Both the position numbers and the translations under genes were made by a program. A stretch of 64,000 nt of DNA from Saccharopolyspora endophytica (GTDB taxonomy: Bacteria > Actinomycetota > Actinomycetes > Mycobacteriales > Pseudonocardiaceae), in contig NZ_JAGPXE010000013.1 of the NCBI RefSeq assembly GCF_018070075.1, positions 1 to 64,000 on the forward strand. Reading direction: 5' to 3'. Every line of letters begins with the position of its first letter. Position 1 is the stretch's first letter. Below the pieces are notes generated by a model. It made no database searches, had not been told where the DNA came from, and saw only the letters and a program-made list of their open reading frames with translations. Below, piece after piece: positions 6,668 through 60,945 of the stretch.

Positions 6668-6845
6668 TCGAAGTGGCGGAGCCACTTTCTCTTTCACCAT
6701 CTGAGCAGCTCGCACCGCCGGGGGTTCTCCAGCGGCTTCGTGGCGAGCACGCCGCGACGATGTGTAGTGGCATGCATGAGGAGTGGCGCGCGGAGTCCAC
6801 GGAGCCGCTCGGGTTCCCCCACCCGCACCGCTGAGCAGGATGACC
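6668..6845 (-). repeat. Structured 3' intergenic element, copy A
   Basis: This is one of six related elements (see 17115, 24148, 26281, 50975 and 60431). Read on the minus strand it begins about 19 nt after the ogt stop. It shows a GCGGTGCG box, the arm AGCGGCTCCGTGG pairing with CCACGAAGCCGCT (one mismatch), a GGCGGTGCGAG box, and the tail hairpin AAGTGGC-TCC-GCCACTT at 6671-6687. Stem sequences differ from other copies but still pair. It may act as the ogt transcript end; it also lies after the sbcC stop on the other strand. Confidence 0.8.
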
Positions 6846-17114: not shown

Positions 17115-17178
17115 GCGGTTGCCTTGCTCGGCGGTGCCGACCGGGTAGGTCGTGAAAAGAGAACGCGGCTCCGCCGCA
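17115..17178 (+). repeat. Structured 3' intergenic element, copy B (internally deleted)
   Basis: Only the two ends of the element remain: the 5' TTGCTCGGCGGTGCCG box and the 3' GTGAAAAGAGAAC box with its tail hairpin GCGGC-TCC-GCCGC (17165-17177). The central arm is missing. Like the others it follows a stop codon (11 nt) in the orientation of the upstream gene. Confidence 0.6.
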
Positions 17179-17189
17179 TCTTCACACCG

Positions 17190-22217: not shown

Positions 22218-24131
22218 GTGTCCGCCACCAGCGTCGCCGCCCCCACGCGCAGTGATCTGCGCAACGTAGCCATCGTCGCGCACGTCGACCACGGCAAGAC
22301 CACCCTGGTCGACGCGATGCTGCGCCAGTCCGGTGCCTTCTCCGAACGCGCCGAGCTCGTCGACCGCGTCATGGACTCCAACGACCTGGAACGTGAGAAG
22401 GGCATCACGATCCTGGCCAAGAACACCGCGATCCGTCGCGAGACCGAAGACGGCCCGGTCACCATCAACGTCGTCGACACCCCCGGCCACGCCGACTTCG
22501 GCGGCGAGGTGGAGCGCGCGCTGTCGATGGTCGACGGCGTGACCCTGCTGGTCGACGCCAGTGAGGGCCCGCTGCCGCAGACCCGCTTCGTGCTGCGCAA
22601 GGCGCTGGCGGCGAAGCTGCCGGTCATCCTGGTCGTCAACAAGGTCGACCGCCCCGACGCGCGCTGCGCCGAGGTCGTCGAAGAGGCCCACGACCTGCTG
22701 CTGGAGCTCGCGAGCGAGCTCGACGGCGAGGTCGACCTGGACATGGAGGCCATCCTCGACCTGCCGGTCGTCTACGCCTCCGCCCGCGCCGGCCGCGCCT
22801 CGATGGAGCAGCCCGTCGACGGCGAGCTGCCCGACGAGGAGAACCTGGACGCGCTGTTCAAGGTCCTGCTCGACCACGTGCCCGCGCCCATCGCCGACTT
22901 CGACTCGCCGCTGAGCGCGCTGGTCACCAACCTCGACGCCTCGTCCTTCCTGGGCCGCATCGGCCTGTGCCGGATCCACTCCGGCACCATGCGCAAGGGC
23001 CAGACCGTCGGCTGGTGCCGCGAGGACGGCAGCGTCGAGAAGGTCCGCCTGACCGAGCTGCTGATCACCGAGAACCTCACCCGCGTGCCCGCCGAGGAAG
23101 CCTCCGCGGGCGACCTGGTGGCCATCGCCGGCGTCCCGGACATCACCATCGGTGACACCCTCACCGACCCGGACAACCCGAAGCCGCTGCCGCGGATCAC
23201 CGTCGACGACCCGGCCATCTCGATGACCATCGGCGTCAACACCTCGCCGCTGACCGGCCGCAACGGCGGCACCAAGATCACCGCCCGGCAGGTCAAGGCC
23301 CGCCTGGACTCCGAGCTGATCGGCAACGTCAGCATGAAGGTGCTGCCGACCGAGAAGCCCGACGCCTGGGAGGTCCAGGGCCGCGGTGAGCTGGCGCTGG
23401 CCATCCTGGTCGAGAACATGCGCCGCGAGGGCTTCGAGCTGACCGTCGGCAAGCCGCAGGTGGTCACCAAGACCATCGACGGCAAGCTGTGCGAGCCGTT
23501 CGAGCGGCTGACCATCGACGCCCCCGAGGAGCACCTCGGCGCCGTCACCCAGCTGCTGGCCGGCCGCAAGGGCCGCATGGAGACCATGGACGGGCACGGC
23601 ACCGGCCGCATCAAGCTGATCTACGTGATCCCCTCGCGCGGCCTGATCGGGTTCCGCACCGAGTTCCTCACCGAGACGCGCGGCACCGGTATCGCCAACC
23701 ACGTCTTCGAGGGCTACTTCCCGTGGGTGGGCGAACTGCGCACCCGCCACAGCGGCTCGTTGGTCGCCGACCGCTCCGGCCCGGCCACCAACTACGCGCT
23801 GCTGCAGCTGGCCGACCGCGGCTCGTTCTTCGTGCAGCCCACCAGCGAGGTCTACGAGGGCATGGTCGTGGGCGAGAACCCGCGCGCCGAGGACCTCGAC
23901 GTGAACATCACCAAGGAGAAGAAGCTCACCAACATGCGGTCCTCGACCGCCGATGAGCTGGAGAAGCTGGCCAAGCCGCGCACCCTCTCGCTGGAGGAGG
24001 CCCTGGAGTTCTGCTCCGGCGACGAGTGCGTCGAGGTCGGTCCGGAAGCGATCCGCGTCCGGAAGATCACCCTGGACAGCACCACCCGCGGTCGCGAGCG
24101 CTCCCGCCAGAAGGCCCGCGACAACTCTTGA
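22218..24131 (+). CDS. typA: Ribosome-associated translational GTPase TypA/BipA
   Basis: The 637-aa GTPase has G1 VDHGKTTLVDAMLRQSG, the switch region with EREKGITILAKNTAI, G3 DTPGHADFGGEV, and G4 VNKVDRPDAR. EF-G-like domains III and V follow, with a BipA-specific C-terminal domain (GLIGFRTEFLTETRGTGIANHVFEGY, ITKEKKLTNMRSS). It acts on the ribosome, mainly under cold or other stress, and in 50S assembly. The family start MSATSVAAPTRSDLRNVAIVAH sets GTG 22218. An element of the structured 3' family begins 17 nt after its stop. Confidence 0.97.
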   Translation: MSATSVAAPTRSDLRNVAIVAHVDHGKTTLVDAMLRQSGAFSERAELVDRVMDSNDLEREKGITILAKNTAIRRETEDGPVTINVVDTPGHADFGGEVERALSMVDGVTLLVDASEGPLPQTRFVLRKALAAKLPVILVVNKVDRPDARCAEVVEEAHDLLLELASELDGEVDLDMEAILDLPVVYASARAGRASMEQPVDGELPDEENLDALFKVLLDHVPAPIADFDSPLSALVTNLDASSFLGRIGLCRIHSGTMRKGQTVGWCREDGSVEKVRLTELLITENLTRVPAEEASAGDLVAIAGVPDITIGDTLTDPDNPKPLPRITVDDPAISMTIGVNTSPLTGRNGGTKITARQVKARLDSELIGNVSMKVLPTEKPDAWEVQGRGELALAILVENMRREGFELTVGKPQVVTKTIDGKLCEPFERLTIDAPEEHLGAVTQLLAGRKGRMETMDGHGTGRIKLIYVIPSRGLIGFRTEFLTETRGTGIANHVFEGYFPWVGELRTRHSGSLVADRSGPATNYALLQLADRGSFFVQPTSEVYEGMVVGENPRAEDLDVNITKEKKLTNMRSSTADELEKLAKPRTLSLEEALEFCSGDECVEVGPEAIRVRKITLDSTTRGRERSRQKARDNS

Positions 24132-24147
24132 TCTCGTTGATCGTGGT

Positions 24148-24327
24148 CGTTCTGCTTGGCGGTGCGAGCAGGGGAACCTGAGCGGCGCTGTGGACTCCGC
24201 GCGCCTCGACTTATGTATGTCCAATACACGGCGTCGAGGCGTGCTCGCCACAGCACCGCTGGAGAACCCCCGGCGGTGCGAGTTGCTCAGGTGGGGTAAG
24301 GAGAAAGCGCCTTCGGCGCTTGCCTGA
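24148..24327 (+). repeat. Structured 3' intergenic element, copy C
   Basis: This near-complete copy follows typA. It has the box GGCGGTGCGAG on both sides of the main arm, AGCGGCGCTGTGG paired with CCACAGCACCGCT (one mismatch), and a second arm CGCCTCGAC/GTCGAGGCG enclosing TGTAT-GTCCA-ATACA. The tail hairpin AAGCGCC-TTC-GGCGCTT is at 24305-24321. A further 23 bases repeat part of the tail (TTCGGCGCTTGCCTGA). The remaining spacer to the lpqW-like gene holds nothing I can name. Confidence 0.85.
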
Positions 24328-24511
24328 CGGTTCGGCGCTTGCCTGATGGTGGTGGCCGCTGGCGTTGGCGGGACCCCGGGGACGATCATCGGATCGGTTG
24401 CGGAACCATGGGGGGCTCTCGCGCGTCCTGCGTTCGGATGATGTCGTCCGGACCTGCGGGGCGCGTGGCCCGGGGTGATCCTCCGGCGGCCGATGTGAGG
24501 GGAGGTTCGGC

Positions 24512-26263
24512 GTGACCCAGGGTCGACGCCGCGCACTGGGCGCGGTTCCCCTGCTGGTGACCGTCGTCAGCCTGGTCGCGGGCTGCACGGACGCTCCACC
24601 ACCGCAGTTGGTGGAGCCGGGTCCGACGACCAGCGCACCCAGCACGAGCACTCCCGCGCAGCCGATGCCGATCGAGGTCGTCGTCGGCGTCGACGAGCTC
24701 GAAGGCGGGTTCAACCCGCACACCCTCGCCGACCTGTCGCCGACGAGCTCCGCGCTCGCCGGGCTGATGCTGCCCTCGGTGTTCCGGCCCGGCCCGGACG
24801 GCGGGCTGCAGCTGGACACCAACCTGATGGAGTCCGCCGAGATCGTCCCGGACGCGGAGAAGTTCACCGTCCGGTACCGGATCAAGCGGCAGGCCAGCTG
24901 GTCCGACGGCGCCCCGATCGCCGCCGAGGACTTCGTCTACCTGTGGGAACAGCTCCGCTCCCAGCCCGGAGTGGCGGACCCGTCCGGCTACCGGCTGATC
25001 GACGACGTCGCCTCCCGGCAGGGCGGCAAGACCGTCGACGTCACCTTCAGCAAGCCCTTCGCGGGATGGCAGACGCTGTTCAACAACCTGCTGCCCGCGC
25101 ACCTGCTGCGCGCCGCGCCGCGCGGCTGGGGAACCGTCCTCGACGACGGCTACCCGGCTTCGGGCGGCCCGTTCGCGATCCGGCAGATCGACCTGGACCG
25201 CGGCGAGATCATCCTGGAGCGCAACGACCGCTACTGGGGCCCGCCCGCGCAGTCCGACCGGATCGTGCTGCGCGCCGTCGACAAGGCCCGCCAGGTCGAG
25301 GCGCTGCGCAGCGGGGACAGCCACATGGCGCTGTTCAGCGCCGACGCCGGGACCGTGCGGTCGCTGCGCGACCTGGGCGACCAGGTGCAGATGATGACCG
25401 TTCCTCGCCCGGCGACCATGGAGATGCTGCTGCGGCAGGACAGCCGCGCGCTCGCCGACGTCAAGGTCCGGCAGGCCGTGCTGGCCGCGCTCGACCGCCC
25501 CGCGTTGATCGAGGCCGGAACCGGCGGCGGTCCCGGTGAGCAGTTGCAGGCCCACGCGCAGGTCCTCGCGCCGTCGGAGCACGGCTACACGCCCACCGAA
25601 CCCGCCGGTGCCTTGCCGAAGCGTCCCGATCCGGCGCAGGTCGAGCGGCTGCTCACCGAGGCCGGGTACCAGCGCACGGGCGGTTCGTGGATCCGCGACG
25701 GACGTCCGCTGAACCTGGTGATCGCCGCGCCCTTCGAGCACGAGGGCTACATCAGCATCGCCGAAGCCGCCGCCCAGCAGCTCCGCGCGCAGGGCATCCA
25801 GGCCACCGTGGTGACGCCGACCGGGGACCAGCTCTTCGGGGACATGCTCGCCACCGATCCGCACTCCGCCGAGGCGGGCACCTCGGGCACCGTCGACATG
25901 GCAGTCGCGCCGCGCCCGGCCGGCGGCGACCCGGCCGCCACCATGGCCTCGTCCTACGGCTGCCCGGGTGTGGACCCCGACAGCGAGCAGCCGCTGCCCT
26001 ACAACGCGGCCGGATTCTGCGACGAGCTCCTGCAACCCACCATCGACGCGGCCCTGTCCGGACGGATGTCGTTCCAGCAGGCGTCGGCGAACGTCGAATC
26101 CGTGCTGTGGCGGGACGCGATCGCCCTCCCGCTCTACCAGCAGGCGCAGGTCCTGGCGCTGAGCAACGAGGCCACCGGCGTCCAAGCGGGCAACGGGTTC
26201 GCCGGGCCGTTCTCCACGGCAGCCCAATGGCTGGGAACACCAGCAGAAAACGACGGCTATTAA
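24512..26263 (+). CDS. lpqW: LpqW-like lipoprotein, peptide-ABC substrate-binding fold
   Basis: The 583-aa lipoprotein has a signal peptide ending in the lipobox LVAGC (Cys near 28) and a Pro/Thr-rich linker. An SBP_bac_5 (DppA/OppA) fold follows: GFNPHTLADLSP, YRIKRQASWSDGAPIAAEDFVYLWE, RNDRYWGPP. No permease or ATPase gene is adjacent. In mycobacteria the orthologue beside typA, LpqW, has lost transport and tunes mannoside/lipoarabinomannan synthesis; orthology here is inferred from position and fold. The start is a GTG with GGGAGG upstream (GGGGAGGTTCGGC). Copy D of the repeat element follows. Confidence 0.8.
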   Translation: MTQGRRRALGAVPLLVTVVSLVAGCTDAPPPQLVEPGPTTSAPSTSTPAQPMPIEVVVGVDELEGGFNPHTLADLSPTSSALAGLMLPSVFRPGPDGGLQLDTNLMESAEIVPDAEKFTVRYRIKRQASWSDGAPIAAEDFVYLWEQLRSQPGVADPSGYRLIDDVASRQGGKTVDVTFSKPFAGWQTLFNNLLPAHLLRAAPRGWGTVLDDGYPASGGPFAIRQIDLDRGEIILERNDRYWGPPAQSDRIVLRAVDKARQVEALRSGDSHMALFSADAGTVRSLRDLGDQVQMMTVPRPATMEMLLRQDSRALADVKVRQAVLAALDRPALIEAGTGGGPGEQLQAHAQVLAPSEHGYTPTEPAGALPKRPDPAQVERLLTEAGYQRTGGSWIRDGRPLNLVIAAPFEHEGYISIAEAAAQQLRAQGIQATVVTPTGDQLFGDMLATDPHSAEAGTSGTVDMAVAPRPAGGDPAATMASSYGCPGVDPDSEQPLPYNAAGFCDELLQPTIDAALSGRMSFQQASANVESVLWRDAIALPLYQQAQVLALSNEATGVQAGNGFAGPFSTAAQWLGTPAENDGY

Positions 26264-26280
26264 TGCTTTGAGATCAGCCG

Positions 26281-26460
26281 TGGTCGTTGTGCGTGGTGCG
26301 GGTGGCGGAACCTGACACGCCTTCTGGCTCCGGGATCCGCGACTTGAGTATTTCTATACGCGGCGCTGCGGCTGTCCTCCCCAGAGAGCCGCTGGCGAAC
26401 CCGCGGCGGTGCCGGTTGCTCTGGTGGGGTAGTGAGAAAGCACCTTCGGTGCTTGCCTGG
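26281..26460 (+). repeat. Structured 3' intergenic element, copy D
   Basis: It starts 17 nt after the lpqW stop. The right half (CCAGAGAGCCGCT, GGCGGTGCCGGTTGCT) is nearly identical to copy F, but the left arm has diverged (ACGCCTTCTGG). The central hairpin is GTAT-TTCT-ATAC, and the tail AAGCACC-TTC-GGTGCTT (26438-26454) is perfect. Confidence 0.8.
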
Positions 26461-26495
26461 CGTTGGGGGCTTCGTTGTTGTTCTTCTGGGGCGAT

Positions 26496-26501
26496 TAGGC
26501 T
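26496..26501 (+). promoter_or_regulatory. -10 element of a leaderless mshB transcript
   Basis: TAGGCT ends 6 nt before the mshB GTG; no ribosome site is present. Confidence 0.45.
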
Positions 26502-26507
26502 GGACCG

Positions 26508-27419
26508 GTGACGCTGACGGCCCCACCGCGGTTGCTGCTGGTACACGCGCATCCAGACGACGAGACCCTGTGGACCGGCGGGACGATCGCCCGCTACGCC
26601 GCTCGCGGCGTGCAGGTCTACGTGGTGACCTGCACCCTCGGCGAGGAAGGCGAGGTCATCCCGGAGAGCCTGCAGGGGCTGGTGTCGGATCAAGCCGACC
26701 AGCTCGGTGGCTACCGGGTCGGTGAGCTCCGCTCGGCCTGCGCCGCGCTGCGGGTCGCCGACCAGCGGTTCCTGGGTGGTGTCGGCCGGTGGCGCGACTC
26801 CGGGATGCTCTGGGAGCAACCCGGCCAGGCGACCGCCCGCCCCGACGCCCATCCGCGCGCCTTCGCCATCGGCGACCGCGAACCGCAGGTCGCCGCGCTG
26901 GCCGACATCCTCGACGAGGTCAAGCCGCAGGTCGTCGTGACCTACGCGGAGGACGGCGGCTACGGGCACCCCGACCACATCCGCGCCCACGAGATCACGC
27001 GCGCGGCGGTCGAGCGCGTCCCGGACGTGGACCGGCTGTTCTACGCGGTGCCCTCGCGCGATGCGCTGGCCGCCGGTCTGGCCGACCTCGCGCGTTCCGA
27101 CGACCTGCCCTTCGACCTGCCCGAACCGCACGAGCTGGCCAGCGTCGCCGACGAGACGATCACCACCGTCATCGACATCGCCGAGCACCTGCCCGCCAAG
27201 ATCAGCGCGCTGCGGGCGCACGGCACCCAGGTCAAGGTCTGGGTCGAGCAGTGGCGCAACGGCGACGGCGTCGCCTCCTACGCGCTGTCCAACGGCGTGG
27301 CGCACCCGGTGGTGACCGCCGAGCACTACGTCCTGGCCACCGGCCCGTCCGAGGGCTGCGAGACGGACCTGTTCGGCGGGCTCGGGGTGAGCGGCACCGA
27401 ACCGGTGGGGGACCGGTGA
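26508..27419 (+). CDS. mshB: 1D-myo-inositol 2-acetamido-2-deoxy-glucopyranoside deacetylase (mycothiol)
   Basis: This 303-aa zinc hydrolase of the LmbE/MshB family carries the metal motifs HAHPDDE near residue 13-19 and GHPDHIRAHE. It removes acetate from GlcNAc-inositol in mycothiol biosynthesis, the step that sets up ligation to cysteine. Length and position next to a small membrane-protein gene match the mycobacterial locus. A GTGA overlap couples it to the following gene. The related amidase Mca has an overlapping motif set, but the gene order favours MshB. Confidence 0.92.
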   Translation: MTLTAPPRLLLVHAHPDDETLWTGGTIARYAARGVQVYVVTCTLGEEGEVIPESLQGLVSDQADQLGGYRVGELRSACAALRVADQRFLGGVGRWRDSGMLWEQPGQATARPDAHPRAFAIGDREPQVAALADILDEVKPQVVVTYAEDGGYGHPDHIRAHEITRAAVERVPDVDRLFYAVPSRDALAAGLADLARSDDLPFDLPEPHELASVADETITTVIDIAEHLPAKISALRAHGTQVKVWVEQWRNGDGVASYALSNGVAHPVVTAEHYVLATGPSEGCETDLFGGLGVSGTEPVGDR

Positions 27420-50974: not shown

Positions 50975-51085
50975 AGTCACACGCCGCCTGGACTCCGTGC
51001 GCCACTCCTTTGGTGTGCCAATACACGGCGTCGCGGCGTACTCGCCAGACGACGTGTGAGAACCCGCGGCGGTGCGGGCTGAGTC
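50975..51085 (+). repeat. Structured 3' intergenic element, copy E
   Basis: It begins within 10 nt of the methyltransferase stop. CGCCGCCTGG and CCAGACGACG pair with G-T wobbles, GTGT and ACAC close the central loop (GTGTGCCAATACAC), and the 3' box GGCGGTGCGGGCTGAG is present. The usual 3' tail is lost or replaced by GCGGC-T-GCCGC near 51101. It lies between convergent genes. Confidence 0.7.
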
Positions 51086-51130
51086 CCACACATGAAGCAG
51101 CGGCTGCCGCCGCAACCCCGCATCGTGCCC

Positions 51131-53887: not shown

Positions 53888-55170
53888 CAGCGGGCCTCCT
53901 GGGACGTCGGCTCCTCCGGTTCCCGGTCGGGCAGGCCGCTGTGCCGCCATCCTCCGGGGAGCAGGTGGTCGAGCAGGTCGTCGACGGTGACCGCCCCGAT
54001 GAGGTGCTCCTCGTCGTCGAGCACCGGCCCGCACACGAGGTTGTAGGCGGCGAAGTAGCGGGTGAGCTCCGACAGCGACGCCAGCGGCGGCAGGCTCGCG
54101 AGGTCGGTGTCCAGCGCGCCGGCGACCAGCGTGGACGGCGGTTCGCGCAGCAACCGCTGCAGGTGCACGCACCCCAGGTAGCGGCCGGTCGGGGTGGCGC
54201 TGGGCGCGCGGCAGACGAAGACCATGCTGGCCACCGCGATCGGCAGTTCCGGGTTGCGGGCCATCGCCAGGGCCTCGGCGATCGTGGCGTCCGGGGTGAC
54301 CACGAGCGGTTCCGGCGTCATCAGCCCGCCCGCCGTGTCGGCGGAGAACTTCAGCAGGCGCTTGACAGGCTCGGACTCCTCCGGGGCCATCATCTCCAGC
54401 AGCCGGACCTTGTCGATCTCGGGCAGTTCGGCGAGCAGGTCGGCGGCGTCGTCGGGGTTCATCGCTTCGAGGACGTCGGCGGCGCGCTCGTCGTCGAGGT
54501 AGGCGAGCAGGTCCTTCTGGTCCTCCTCGGGGAGCTCTTCGACGATGTCGGCCAGCCGCTCGTCGTCGAGCGCTTCGGCGACCTCGTAGCGACGCTTGGT
54601 CGGCAGCTCGTGCAGGGTGCTCGCGACGTCGACCGCGCGCATCGTGTCGAACATCGACAGCAGCTGCTGCACGCCCTGCGGGCTGCCGGTGACCTCGGCG
54701 AACTCCAGGCCCTCCACCTGGTCCCAGTCCAGCACCTTCGTCGGTCCGCGCCGGCCCAGCCTGCCGGTGCGCTCGCGGACCGCGAGCTTGGTCAGCTGCC
54801 AGTCGCGGGTGCGGGTCTGCTCCAGCGCGGAGTCGACCAGCACCGCCGAGGCCGACTCGATGCGCACCTGGGCGTCGAGCAGCTCGCCGAGCACCAGCAT
54901 CTCGTTGGGGCGCTTGGTGAAGGCCCGCAGGTTCACCGAGCCGGTGGTGAGGGTGACCGCGGCGGCCTCGATGCGGGTGACCCGCAGCATCGGCACGAAG
55001 ATCCGCCGCCGGGTGGGCAGTTCCACGACCAGGCCGAGGACGCGCGGCGGTTGCCGCCGGACGCTGAGCGCGGCGACCACGTCGCGGACCCGCCCGATGG
55101 GTTCGCCGTCCGGACCGAACACGGACAGTCCTGCCATCCGGGCGGCGAAGACCCTGGTAACGGCCACCAT
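53887..55170 (-). CDS. MgtE N-domain/CBS protein without the channel
   Basis: The 427-aa protein has an N-terminal PRC-barrel-like part (FGPDGEPIGRVRDVVAAL), a second one (VLDWDQVEGLEFAEVTG), MgtE intracellular helical repeats (LDDERLADIVEELPEEDQKDLLAYLDDERAADVLEAMNPDDAADLL), and a CBS pair (GLMTPEPLVVTPDATIAEALAM, GAVTVDDLLDHLLPGG). MgtE has the Mg-sensing N and CBS domains plus five membrane helices; this protein ends after CBS and has no helix. It may be a soluble Mg sensor acting with DUF1003. It matches Rv1232c in position. Confidence 0.9.
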   Translation of the reverse strand: MVAVTRVFAARMAGLSVFGPDGEPIGRVRDVVAALSVRRQPPRVLGLVVELPTRRRIFVPMLRVTRIEAAAVTLTTGSVNLRAFTKRPNEMLVLGELLDAQVRIESASAVLVDSALEQTRTRDWQLTKLAVRERTGRLGRRGPTKVLDWDQVEGLEFAEVTGSPQGVQQLLSMFDTMRAVDVASTLHELPTKRRYEVAEALDDERLADIVEELPEEDQKDLLAYLDDERAADVLEAMNPDDAADLLAELPEIDKVRLLEMMAPEESEPVKRLLKFSADTAGGLMTPEPLVVTPDATIAEALAMARNPELPIAVASMVFVCRAPSATPTGRYLGCVHLQRLLREPPSTLVAGALDTDLASLPPLASLSELTRYFAAYNLVCGPVLDDEEHLIGAVTVDDLLDHLLPGGWRHSGLPDREPEEPTSQEAR

Positions 55171-59834: not shown

Positions 59835-60353
59835 GTGTCCAACCCCTTTACCGGCGCGAGCCGGCCGGCGCCGGGCACACCCAACCTGCCCACGCCACCC
59901 ACCGGCTGGCCGATCGGTTCTTACGGCAAGTACGAAGAAGCGCAGCGGGCCGTCGACCACCTGGCCGACAGCGACTTCCCCGTCCAGGAGGTCACCATCG
60001 TCGGCGTCGACCTGATGCTGGTCGAGCGCGTGACCGGCAGGCTGACGTGGGGACGCGTGCTCGGCGGTGGGGCCGCCTCGGGCGCCTGGTTCGGCCTGTT
60101 CGTCGGCCTGATCATGGGCATGTTCACCCCGCAGGGCAGCTGGATCGCCCCGGTGCTGGCCGGTCTCGGCGCGGGCATCGTGTTCGGCCTGGTCTTCGCC
60201 GCCGTCGGCTACGCCTCCACGCGCGGCCGTCGGGACTTCTCCTCGGCCAGCCAGCTGGTCGCGGGGCGTTACGACGTGCTCGCCCAGCCGAAGCACGCCG
60301 AGCAGGGGCGTGATCTGCTCGCCAAGCTCGCCATGCGCCCTCCGGCTTCGTAG
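59835..60353 (+). CDS. General stress protein 17M-like membrane protein
   Basis: The 172-aa protein has a YflT/GSP17M-type domain (IGSYGKYEEAQRAVDHLADSDFPVQEVTIVGVDLMLVERVTGRLTWGRV). Two membrane helices follow (GAWFGLFVGLIMGMF, VLAGLGAGIVFGLVFAAVGY), then a short cytosolic tail. GTG 59835 is chosen because GGAGG (59822-59826) lies 8 nt upstream; GTG 59826 overlaps that site. It corresponds to Rv1234, next to the trehalose importer. Copy F of the repeat element follows. Confidence 0.85.
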   Translation: MSNPFTGASRPAPGTPNLPTPPTGWPIGSYGKYEEAQRAVDHLADSDFPVQEVTIVGVDLMLVERVTGRLTWGRVLGGGAASGAWFGLFVGLIMGMFTPQGSWIAPVLAGLGAGIVFGLVFAAVGYASTRGRRDFSSASQLVAGRYDVLAQPKHAEQGRDLLAKLAMRPPAS

Positions 60354-60377
60354 GTCGTTCCTGTTCACTGACAACTG

Positions 60378-60608
60378 CTCAGTGGTCTCGTTGCTTGGCG
60401 GCTCGGGTTCACTGCCACTACTCAGTGGTCTTGTTGCTTTGCGGTGCCAGAAGCGGAACCTGAGCGGCTCTCTGGCTCCGGGATCCGAGACTTGTGTATG
60501 TCCAATACACGGCGCTACGGCTGTCCTCCCCAGAGAGCCGCTCAGAACCCGCGGCGGTGCCGGTTGCTTGCTCGGGGTAGTGAGAAACCGGCTTCGCCGG
60601 TTGCCTGA
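60378..60608 (+). repeat. Structured 3' intergenic element, copy F, with duplicated 5' end
   Basis: This is the best-preserved copy. CTGAGCGGCTCTCTGG (60460-60475) pairs perfectly with CCAGAGAGCCGCTCAG (60530-60545), GTGTAT/ATACAC closes the central loop (60494-60510), and the tail AACCGGC-TTC-GCCGGTT is at 60586-60602. A 24-bp stretch at 60378-60401 recurs with two changes at 60421-60444, so the 5' end is duplicated. A second, lone tail-type hairpin GCGGC-TTC-GCCGC is at 60627-60639. Confidence 0.88.
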
Positions 60609-60639
60609 CGGGGTTCAGAAGCATCTGCGGCTTCGCCGC

Positions 60640-60945
60640 TTGCACCGAATCGGGAACCCCTTCCGGCCCCTGTTCTCGGGTTGTCGGGATCGTCTTGGTT
60701 TCAACGAAACCCCTGCTCCGGCCGCCGAAACGGCTAAGTGATCCGGGGCTAATGGGGGAGCGGTTGCATCGGTCGTTCACCGGTTCTTCACGGGTTGGCA
60801 ACAAGGCGCGGGAGTGCTTGCCCTCCGTGATCATCGGGCCTTAGCTTTCCAGCCACCGGCTGACCGCCGGTGGTCGTGGTGCGACGGAGCGTTGGCGAAT
60901 CCCGGGAGCTCGGTCGCACACGCGACCAGGGCACCGGAAGGACTG
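60640..60945. other. Spacer upstream of lpqY
   Basis: I see no gene. The ribosome site GGAAGGA (60935-60941) of lpqY is at its right end. No clear -10/-35 pair or regulator site stands out. Confidence 0.4.

Follow-up and report, generated by a model that had tools for sequence, protein, structure and literature searches.

What kind of sequence is the hairpin that stands behind a stress protein gene of Saccharopolyspora endophytica, and why do its relatives in the same genome also stand behind genes? The DNA analysed, called the window here, is a stretch of 64,000 nucleotides (assembly GCF_018070075.1, contig NZ_JAGPXE010000013.1, positions 1 to 64,000). A preliminary description had listed six copies of a covarying structured element placed directly after stop codons, and had suggested transcript ends, mRNA stability or a transposed non-autonomous element as explanations. 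Our answer, held with modest confidence, is that the repeat represents a Pseudonocardiaceae-wide family of non-autonomous, MITE-like mobile elements, sited at stop codons and carrying a hairpin that is kept in shape and marked by strand.

The focal copy, on the plus strand at 60425..60614, is full-length, with head, long arm and tail hairpin (profile match, 171.4 bits). Its GCGGTGC boxes are located at about 60441-60447 and 60554-60560, and its tail stem, AACCGGC/GCCGGTT, at about 60586-60603. The start at 60378 given earlier belongs to a partial extra head at 60378..60424 (plus strand; head-like GCTCAGTGGTCTCGTTGCTTGGCGG, read from the sequence). Upstream lies a YflT-type stress protein gene (59835..60353, plus strand, stop TAG). 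Two more full-length copies were matched by the profile on the plus strand: 24143..24332, which begins 12 nt after the stop codon of typA (22218..24131, plus strand), and 26280..26465, with hybrid outer arms, behind a solute-binding protein gene (24665..26263, plus strand). The full-length copy at 6671..6845, on the minus strand, lies between convergent genes and has CTAG on both flanks, a candidate target duplication. The copy at 50979..51105 (plus strand; profile match 50979-51081) is without the 5' head and has another tail type (GGGCTGAGTCCCACAC...), and the one at 17115..17183 (plus strand; weak profile match 17127-17179) is an arm-less short form with a CTAG duplication. Five of the six copies thus have the long arm, and the sixth is a remnant of head and tail only.

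A same-strand gene was found upstream of all six copies, as had been described. The match starts 12-23 nt after the upstream stop in five of them and 72 nt after it in the copy at 60425, where the extra partial head is nearer. Family matches agree with five of the six gene names proposed (ogt, FAD-dependent oxidase, TypA, O-methyltransferase and YflT-type stress protein); the gene called lpqW matches solute-binding families such as SBP_bac_5. The statement that pairing is perfect holds for the tail stems of five copies, with 7 bp in 6671, 24143, 26280 and 60425 and 5 bp in 17127; it fails for 50979, which has only a 4-bp stem in the stretch tested. In the outer arm it holds for 60425 (14/14); 6671 and 24143 have 12/14, 50979 at most 10/14 in a crude scan, and 26280 is unpaired, with 9/14 as the best match anywhere. 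The outer arms of 26280 do not pair because their two sides stem from different sub-families, an exchange of arms having cost this copy its outer pairing; in its orthologs in two relatives, G009 and G016, the sides match. Extra tail-like pieces were also seen behind full copies, at 60620-60649 and 24331-24350 in the window and, in G016, after the solute-binding protein gene, as though the tail module could duplicate by itself.

The repeat is not confined to the window. A profile search of 1.264 Mb of the focal genome (the window, 800 contiguous kb of contig C1 and 400 kb picked around matches) found 52 long and 12 partial copies of a dispersed unit of about 190 bp, and 26 of the long copies lie within the contiguous 800 kb. 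No coding gene was found within copies, which measure up to about 190 bp. When one window copy was used as a DNA query, 195 first-look candidates appeared in its own genome; the 40 that were scored all had E<=4.9e-34, so the repeat stands far above chance. DNA search detected it in 19 of 22 Saccharopolyspora genomes and in none of 19 others, which had suggested a repeat restricted to the genus. This was rejected when covariance model R1, in which the focal copy is represented by 60436..60567 (both GCGGTGC boxes and the long arm), found the family in 41 of 150 Pseudonocardiaceae genomes and 13 of 46 genera; a covariance search of actinobacterial genomes had been proposed in the preliminary description. 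That description had also offered no named family, and the Rfam search agrees, with no match over the gathering threshold in the window and none up to E=1 for 60330-60700. Titles and abstract openings in the literature yielded no description of the repeat, which is no proof of absence in print. Transcriptomes of S. erythraea with 190 putative intergenic ncRNAs have been published (PMC3610266), and the partial text of that paper contains the terms "motif", "hairpin" and "stop codon" 0 times.

In the consensus of the element, two GCGGTGC boxes enclose a hairpin of about 110 nt. Some 20 nt of head precede the first box, and one of several tails follows the second; many of these tails finish in a small hairpin with a TTCG-like loop. 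Arm-less forms occur at 17127 in the window, at C34 17300 and at C1 339621. At the locus A84018, compared among the window's genome (G000) and two relatives (G009 and G016), head and tail are kept and the arm differs by species or is missing. In an S. dendranthemae-like genome (G001), another palindrome takes the place of the arm between recognisable remnants of head and tail. Arms are swapped or missing between a kept head and tail; therefore, pieces of the element recombine. A second high-copy palindrome, with the core GGGGAAGTTTTCATGAAAACTTCCCC, was noted at L196:11966-12000, and in G001 it stands at sites orthologous to the window in place of the arm. With a 4-kb query that ends in the GGGGAAGTTTTCATGAAAACTTCCCC palindrome, G016 gave 103 matches and G001 gave 78; most involve the final 40 nt or so of the query, and as a rule a site is counted on both strands.

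Movement of the element can be observed in orthologous intergenic regions of six Saccharopolyspora genomes, in which it is present, absent, truncated or, at one site, inverted. By one neighbouring protein, G000 is nearest to S. aridisoli (97%). Besides G000 and G001, the labelled genomes are G007, which is S. aridisoli-like, and G009, G016 and G011, which correspond to S. ipomoeae, S. flava and S. rhizosphaerae, respectively. The site of the 26280 copy holds an element of the same orientation in three relatives, an inverted one in another and none in a fifth; at the site of 17115..17183, a full element stands in the S. aridisoli-like genome and an empty CTAG in the S. dendranthemae-like one. 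Dispersal and such filled and empty sites bear out the earlier suggestion of a transposed non-autonomous element, presumably moved by a transposase.

A clean 4-bp duplication, which is itself the stop codon, was found at 3 of 17 displayed sites: CTAG at g12/g13 of the window (an element in G000 and G007, none in G001), CTAG at 92824 of G001 (empty CTAG in G016, CTAA in G000) and TTAA at the gene pair g49/g50 (an element in G009, none in G016). At these three sites, gene pairs that overlap by 4 nt at their stops in a relative are split by the element in another species. The other 14 displayed sites are without a clean duplication, some for want of an alignable empty relative. Clean duplications form a selected sample, because an insertion into overlapping convergent genes that did not restore the stop would be lost. 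At 54388 of G009, CCAA stands on both flanks where G016 has CTAG; copy C2 76785, in tandem context, has CTAG on both flanks and a terminal inverted repeat of 10/12. Ends of the GAGCTGTT type are inverted in this copy (10/12) and at G001 92824 (7/12), and terminal inverted repeats of at least 7/12 occur in 4 of 76 copies, compared with 0-3 in shifted controls.

A scan of 64 suitable copies for a duplication with an inverted repeat did not rise above a shifted null: any 4-mer repeat was found in 31, versus a null mean of 24.3 and maximum of 33. An inverted repeat beside the duplication reached at least 5 matches in 5 of these 64 copies (null 3.6) and at least 7 matches in 2 (null 0.2). Duplication of 4 bp at insertion is supported but not proven as a general rule. 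A broader rule proposed by eye, in which Y plus any stop codon including CTGA would be duplicated, was rejected, being not above the null. Of the 64 copies that have a stop codon 15-32 nt away, 15 follow a YTAR stop: 14 of 41 in Saccharopolyspora, and 1 of 23 in G049 and G050, complete chromosomes from other Pseudonocardiaceae genera. In G000 alone the figure is 10 of 33 copies, compared with 7.9% of 1089 G000 genes (p=1.6e-4). TGA is the most common stop before copies (41/64). YTAR may be the target outside Saccharopolyspora as well, against which the 1 of 23 in G049 and G050 counts.

The placement of the repeat relative to genes, which were called with a codon-usage model made for this analysis, is highly uneven. 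Among the 52 long copies, 23 lie in tandem gaps in sense, 22 in convergent gaps and 7 in tandem gaps in antisense; none lies in a divergent gap, though such gaps make up 27% of intergenic length. The 45 copies with a same-strand upstream gene include 36 that start at most 27 nt from its stop codon and 9 at 62-421 nt, and for the seven antisense copies the opposite gene's stop codon is 5-71 nt away. Outside this sample, 67 of 78 loci are sense to the upstream gene (36 of 40 in G049 and G050, 31 of 38 further loci), and one of the 78 lies in a divergent gap. The further loci come from ten other genera, together with one genome of the G049 genus and one of the focal genus, low-scoring loci being left out; 39 were chosen, L226 was dropped as too short, and four are gatB orthologs. 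The first box begins 18-24 nt after the stop codon in 40 of the 76 copies whose sense stop is at most 70 nt away; these were drawn from 124 copies, of which some stand on short loci that have no gene calls. Of the 31 sense loci of the further set, 17 have the same spacing. Orientation in the sense of the upstream gene, as first described, therefore holds for 45 of the 52 long copies and not for the 7 antisense ones.

Such placement favors a first alternative, in which cotranscribed hairpins in the 3' UTR would protect, process or terminate the mRNA of the upstream gene, and selection on the sense RNA would keep both pairing and orientation. The excess of sense over antisense copies in tandem context (p=0.005) points the same way. 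In four genomes of genus g49 (L225, L227, L229 and L235; G129, G102, G149 and G180), which have 1-2 copies each, a copy stands immediately after gatB; this also speaks for the sense RNA, with two compensatory changes between L225 and L227. In L235, however, several outer-arm pairs were lost. The box follows the gatB stop codon by 3-4 nt in three of these four genomes. Six g49 genomes had a match, four of them with the gatB copy, and the fetched loci of the other two (G069 and G165) were without gatB. The gatB-linked copy may be domesticated.

A scan for intrinsic terminators (stem-loop and T-run) over 24100-26700, which includes two copies, gave 1 match versus 0.8 in shuffles; this match, at 26443-26469, overlaps the tail of the 26280 copy, and single copies may have a terminator role. 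At one site, judged by eye, the element lies between the stop codon and a seemingly native terminator; the element is thus not the only terminator there. At another site, also by eye, the element comes after a terminator-like hairpin in all three species. Both sites count against the sense RNA.

In an alignment of 34 copies from the focal genome, 90.7% of cells are paired, compared with 82.0% after shuffling and 30-47% after sliding, and 26 of 60 pairs have changes on both sides, compared with 16.8 and 11-13; since the structure was derived from the same alignment, the first measure is biased upward and the second less so. The covarying structured element of the preliminary description is thereby supported. 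A selected sense RNA should tolerate G.U pairs but not A.C. In the variable helices 2, 3 and 6, with commonly G.U pairs left out, G.U occupies 10 cells and A.C 57. Helices 1 and 5, which are less trusted, have 23 G.U and 5 A.C, in favor of the sense RNA; helix 4 has 1 and 1, and the whole structure 34 G.U and 63 A.C. The outer helix 1 (GCGGTGC/GCGGTGC) was dropped as evidence, as it consists mostly of constitutive G.U pairs that arise from a direct repeat.

The same asymmetry appears in a wider sample of 116 distinct 14-nt outer-arm pairs from 12 genera, limited to motif-anchored arms that match in at least 10/14 positions, so that broken copies such as 26280 are left out. Sixteen pairs are perfect, and the others contain 172 mismatches: 116 that are wobbles on the opposite strand, 14 that are wobbles on the sense strand and 42 others. 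Among the 116, 103 are C.A, and 82 fall at three neighbouring positions. Counted by arm, 76 favor the opposite strand and 7 the sense strand. The excess is present in 10 of the 12 genera; genus g30 has 2 to 2, and g62 is without a wobble mismatch. When 156 distinct arms were folded as RNA, the opposite strand had the stabler structure in 119 and the sense strand in 37; genus g30, in which the sense strand folds slightly better, contributes 18 of the 37. These strand counts are inflated by the shared ancestry of sub-families, but the flanking stem sequence differs from one sub-family to another. We read the off-centre mismatch as a conserved feature that distinguishes the strands, and the fold that matters more likely belongs to the opposite strand, whether DNA or RNA. 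The folded sense transcript as the object of selection, to which covariation alone had seemed to point, is weakened by these counts and is unlikely.

Passive forces alone might also have produced the pattern. The repeat would then be old and dead, persisting at sites where it is harmless, and template switching between the arms would have perfected its palindromes. Copies are indeed diverged, truncated and recombined; arms differ between species at one fixed locus, and the 26280 copy is a hybrid. Similar 3' placement of pneumococcal repeats is explained in this way in the part of PMC3049150 considered. The narrow spacing of 18-24 nt from the stop codon in several genera argues against this explanation, as does the conserved mismatch, which template switching should erase, so that passive forces as the whole cause appear doubtful.

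If the opposite strand folds, its transcript could be the functional molecule, as a convergent 3' UTR or as an antisense RNA. The wobble asymmetry of 116 to 14 and the stability of the bottom strand fit this possibility, and convergent gaps hold 22 of the 52 long copies, compared with 192 of 981 among convergent and tandem gaps together (p=1.6e-4). However, the 23 tandem sense copies have a bottom strand that belongs to no called gene's mRNA, and no promoter consensus match was found in 24100-26700 of the window, a weak test. A functional bottom-strand transcript is quite improbable; a mobile element whose folded strand is presumably DNA would account for the same asymmetry, and the data agree equally with a DNA fold and with an opposite-strand RNA.

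A relation with replication was also observed in the two complete chromosomes, with the origin assumed near base 1, in agreement with the GC skew of the fetched loci. In G050, 37 of the 40 copies listed (of 107 found) are oriented with replication, and in G049 29 of the 31 listed (of 45 found); as a baseline, among 140 genes close to the 40 copies fetched first, 101 are so oriented. The copies fetched were among the best-scoring listed, and 47 of 50 have both neighbours, three loci being too short. In tandem context, these 47 comprise 24 sense concordant, 0 sense discordant, 3 antisense concordant and 1 antisense discordant copies, and 14 of 18 convergent ones are concordant. Saccharopolyspora fragments gave no such bias by a weak skew proxy (22/45). 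Replication-linked orientation is therefore kept as a side finding and a lead. An element of the REP type, mobilised by a RAYT/IS200-like enzyme or by some other system that acts on single-stranded DNA during replication, would explain the bias in G049 and G050, but it is the least probable of the readings, given the absence of bias in Saccharopolyspora, the clean 4-bp duplications, which are not expected of that enzyme class, and the placement of the only Y1 transposase found in the genome within an IS605-type element without the element's ends.

Candidates for a partner enzyme of the mobile element were sought in the focal genome. No partner transposase was found among PF13586, PF13340, PF13546, PF01609 and PF01797: the first three had no match, PF01609 had one weak fragment, and the 3.3-kb locus of the sole Y1 transposase has no repeat match (E<=10). 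That locus, L219, holds the IS605-type element (Y1 transposase and a TnpB-like frame) between two genes that look, by eye, like a serine dehydratase gene and, downstream, an ACT-domain gene. In search of an autonomous copy, 156 loci (2.78 Mb) were scanned for pairs of element ends, with one mismatch allowed at each end; a single pair appeared, the known copy G001 92824. Insertion sequences of the IS701 family (PF13546) occur in 10 of 22 Saccharopolyspora genomes; those in G021 (L164, L172, L179 and L186) have TAGGACTTTGTTAG ends and CTAG on both flanks. IS5/IS4-like, IS701 and IS200 partners were rejected, as none of them fits.

A mechanism may nevertheless be proposed. The 5' end of most copies lies at a stop codon, and in the clean cases the 4-bp target YTAR (CTAG or TTAA) is the stop codon itself, in duplicate. 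Such duplication would keep the upstream reading frame, and copies would then pile up in the 3' ends of genes. The mobilising machinery would recognise the folded strand by shape, so that stem sequence would be free to drift and pairing would not; the conserved C.A mismatch away from the centre, which becomes a wobble when the other strand is read, would mark the strand that folds. Effects on mRNA ends would be secondary to mobility. In its full form, with an enzyme that recognises the folded bottom strand by its structure and off-centre wobble and inserts at stop codons, using in Saccharopolyspora a YTAR stop as duplicated target, and with insertion or survival tied to replication direction in some genera, the scheme is tentative and rather less probable than the mobile-element reading as such. 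Saccharopolyspora includes industrial producers of antibiotics; therefore, elements behind many of its genes may also shift expression.

By analogy, the repeat appears to work like YPAL, ERIC or BOX elements, its closest analogues, and membership in none of them is claimed. YPAL (Yersinia palindromic sequences, about 167 bp) are likewise short, non-coding, hairpin-forming insertions, in another phylum. A 2006 abstract reportedly describes their presence or absence at syntenic sites, their position closely downstream of stop codons and their cotranscription, and the siting close behind stop codons is shared by the present repeat. We know of no strand-marking mismatch in YPAL. Enterobacterial elements with TA ends and TA duplications are described in the part of PMC2759123 considered, and further background on YPAL in that of PMC2267715; the TA duplication of YPAL differs from the 4-bp CTAG or TTAA at the three clean sites of the repeat.

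BOX, RUP and SPRITE of the pneumococcus are also small folding repeats, BOX being modular, that are enriched between convergent genes, and the partial text of PMC3049150 reports that 36 of 58 CDSs overlapping BOX take their stop codon from it. According to the excerpts considered, about 61-63% of pneumococcal repeats lie on the leading strand, mirroring genes, whereas for the present repeat the corresponding share is 66 of 71 copies listed from G049 and G050, and 22 of 45 from the focal genus. RUP and BOX have ends similar to those of resident IS elements, whereas no such IS was found for the repeat. The IS701 family of the same genus also inserts at CTAG (four identical copies in G021), but its terminal TAGGACTTTGTTAG differs from the GAGCTGTT of the repeat, and the window's genome has no PF13546 match.

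REP sequences (GTAG and CGTC super-families) resemble the repeat as high-copy intergenic palindromes. The part of PMC3733652 considered describes stems of 8-9 bp tagged at one end, and contains "actinobacteria", "Streptomyces" and "Saccharopolyspora" 0 times. In 23 of 34 copies, the bottom strand has CGTC among its first 30 nt, ahead of the tail stem (11 are without it), and in 18 the distance from CGTC to that stem is 4 nt (17 with a 7-bp stem, one with 6 bp); CGTC at the end of an 8-9 bp stem was not found among the 34. No RAYT gene flanked by the repeat was found.

Integron attC sites are hairpins behind stop codons that are recognised by the shape of one folded strand. The repeat resembles them in its siting and would do so in its recognition, and the attC boxes RYYYAAC/GTTRRRY occur in 0 of 34 copies on either strand. 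If the mobile-element reading is correct, the 3'-end repeats of enterobacteria and pneumococcus have a family-wide counterpart in the actinobacteria, and repeats behind stop codons gain a simple rule, in which the stop codon is the target or part of it. Moreover, a conserved mismatch that separates the strands makes it testable whether hairpin repeats of bacteria are kept for reasons of RNA or of DNA.
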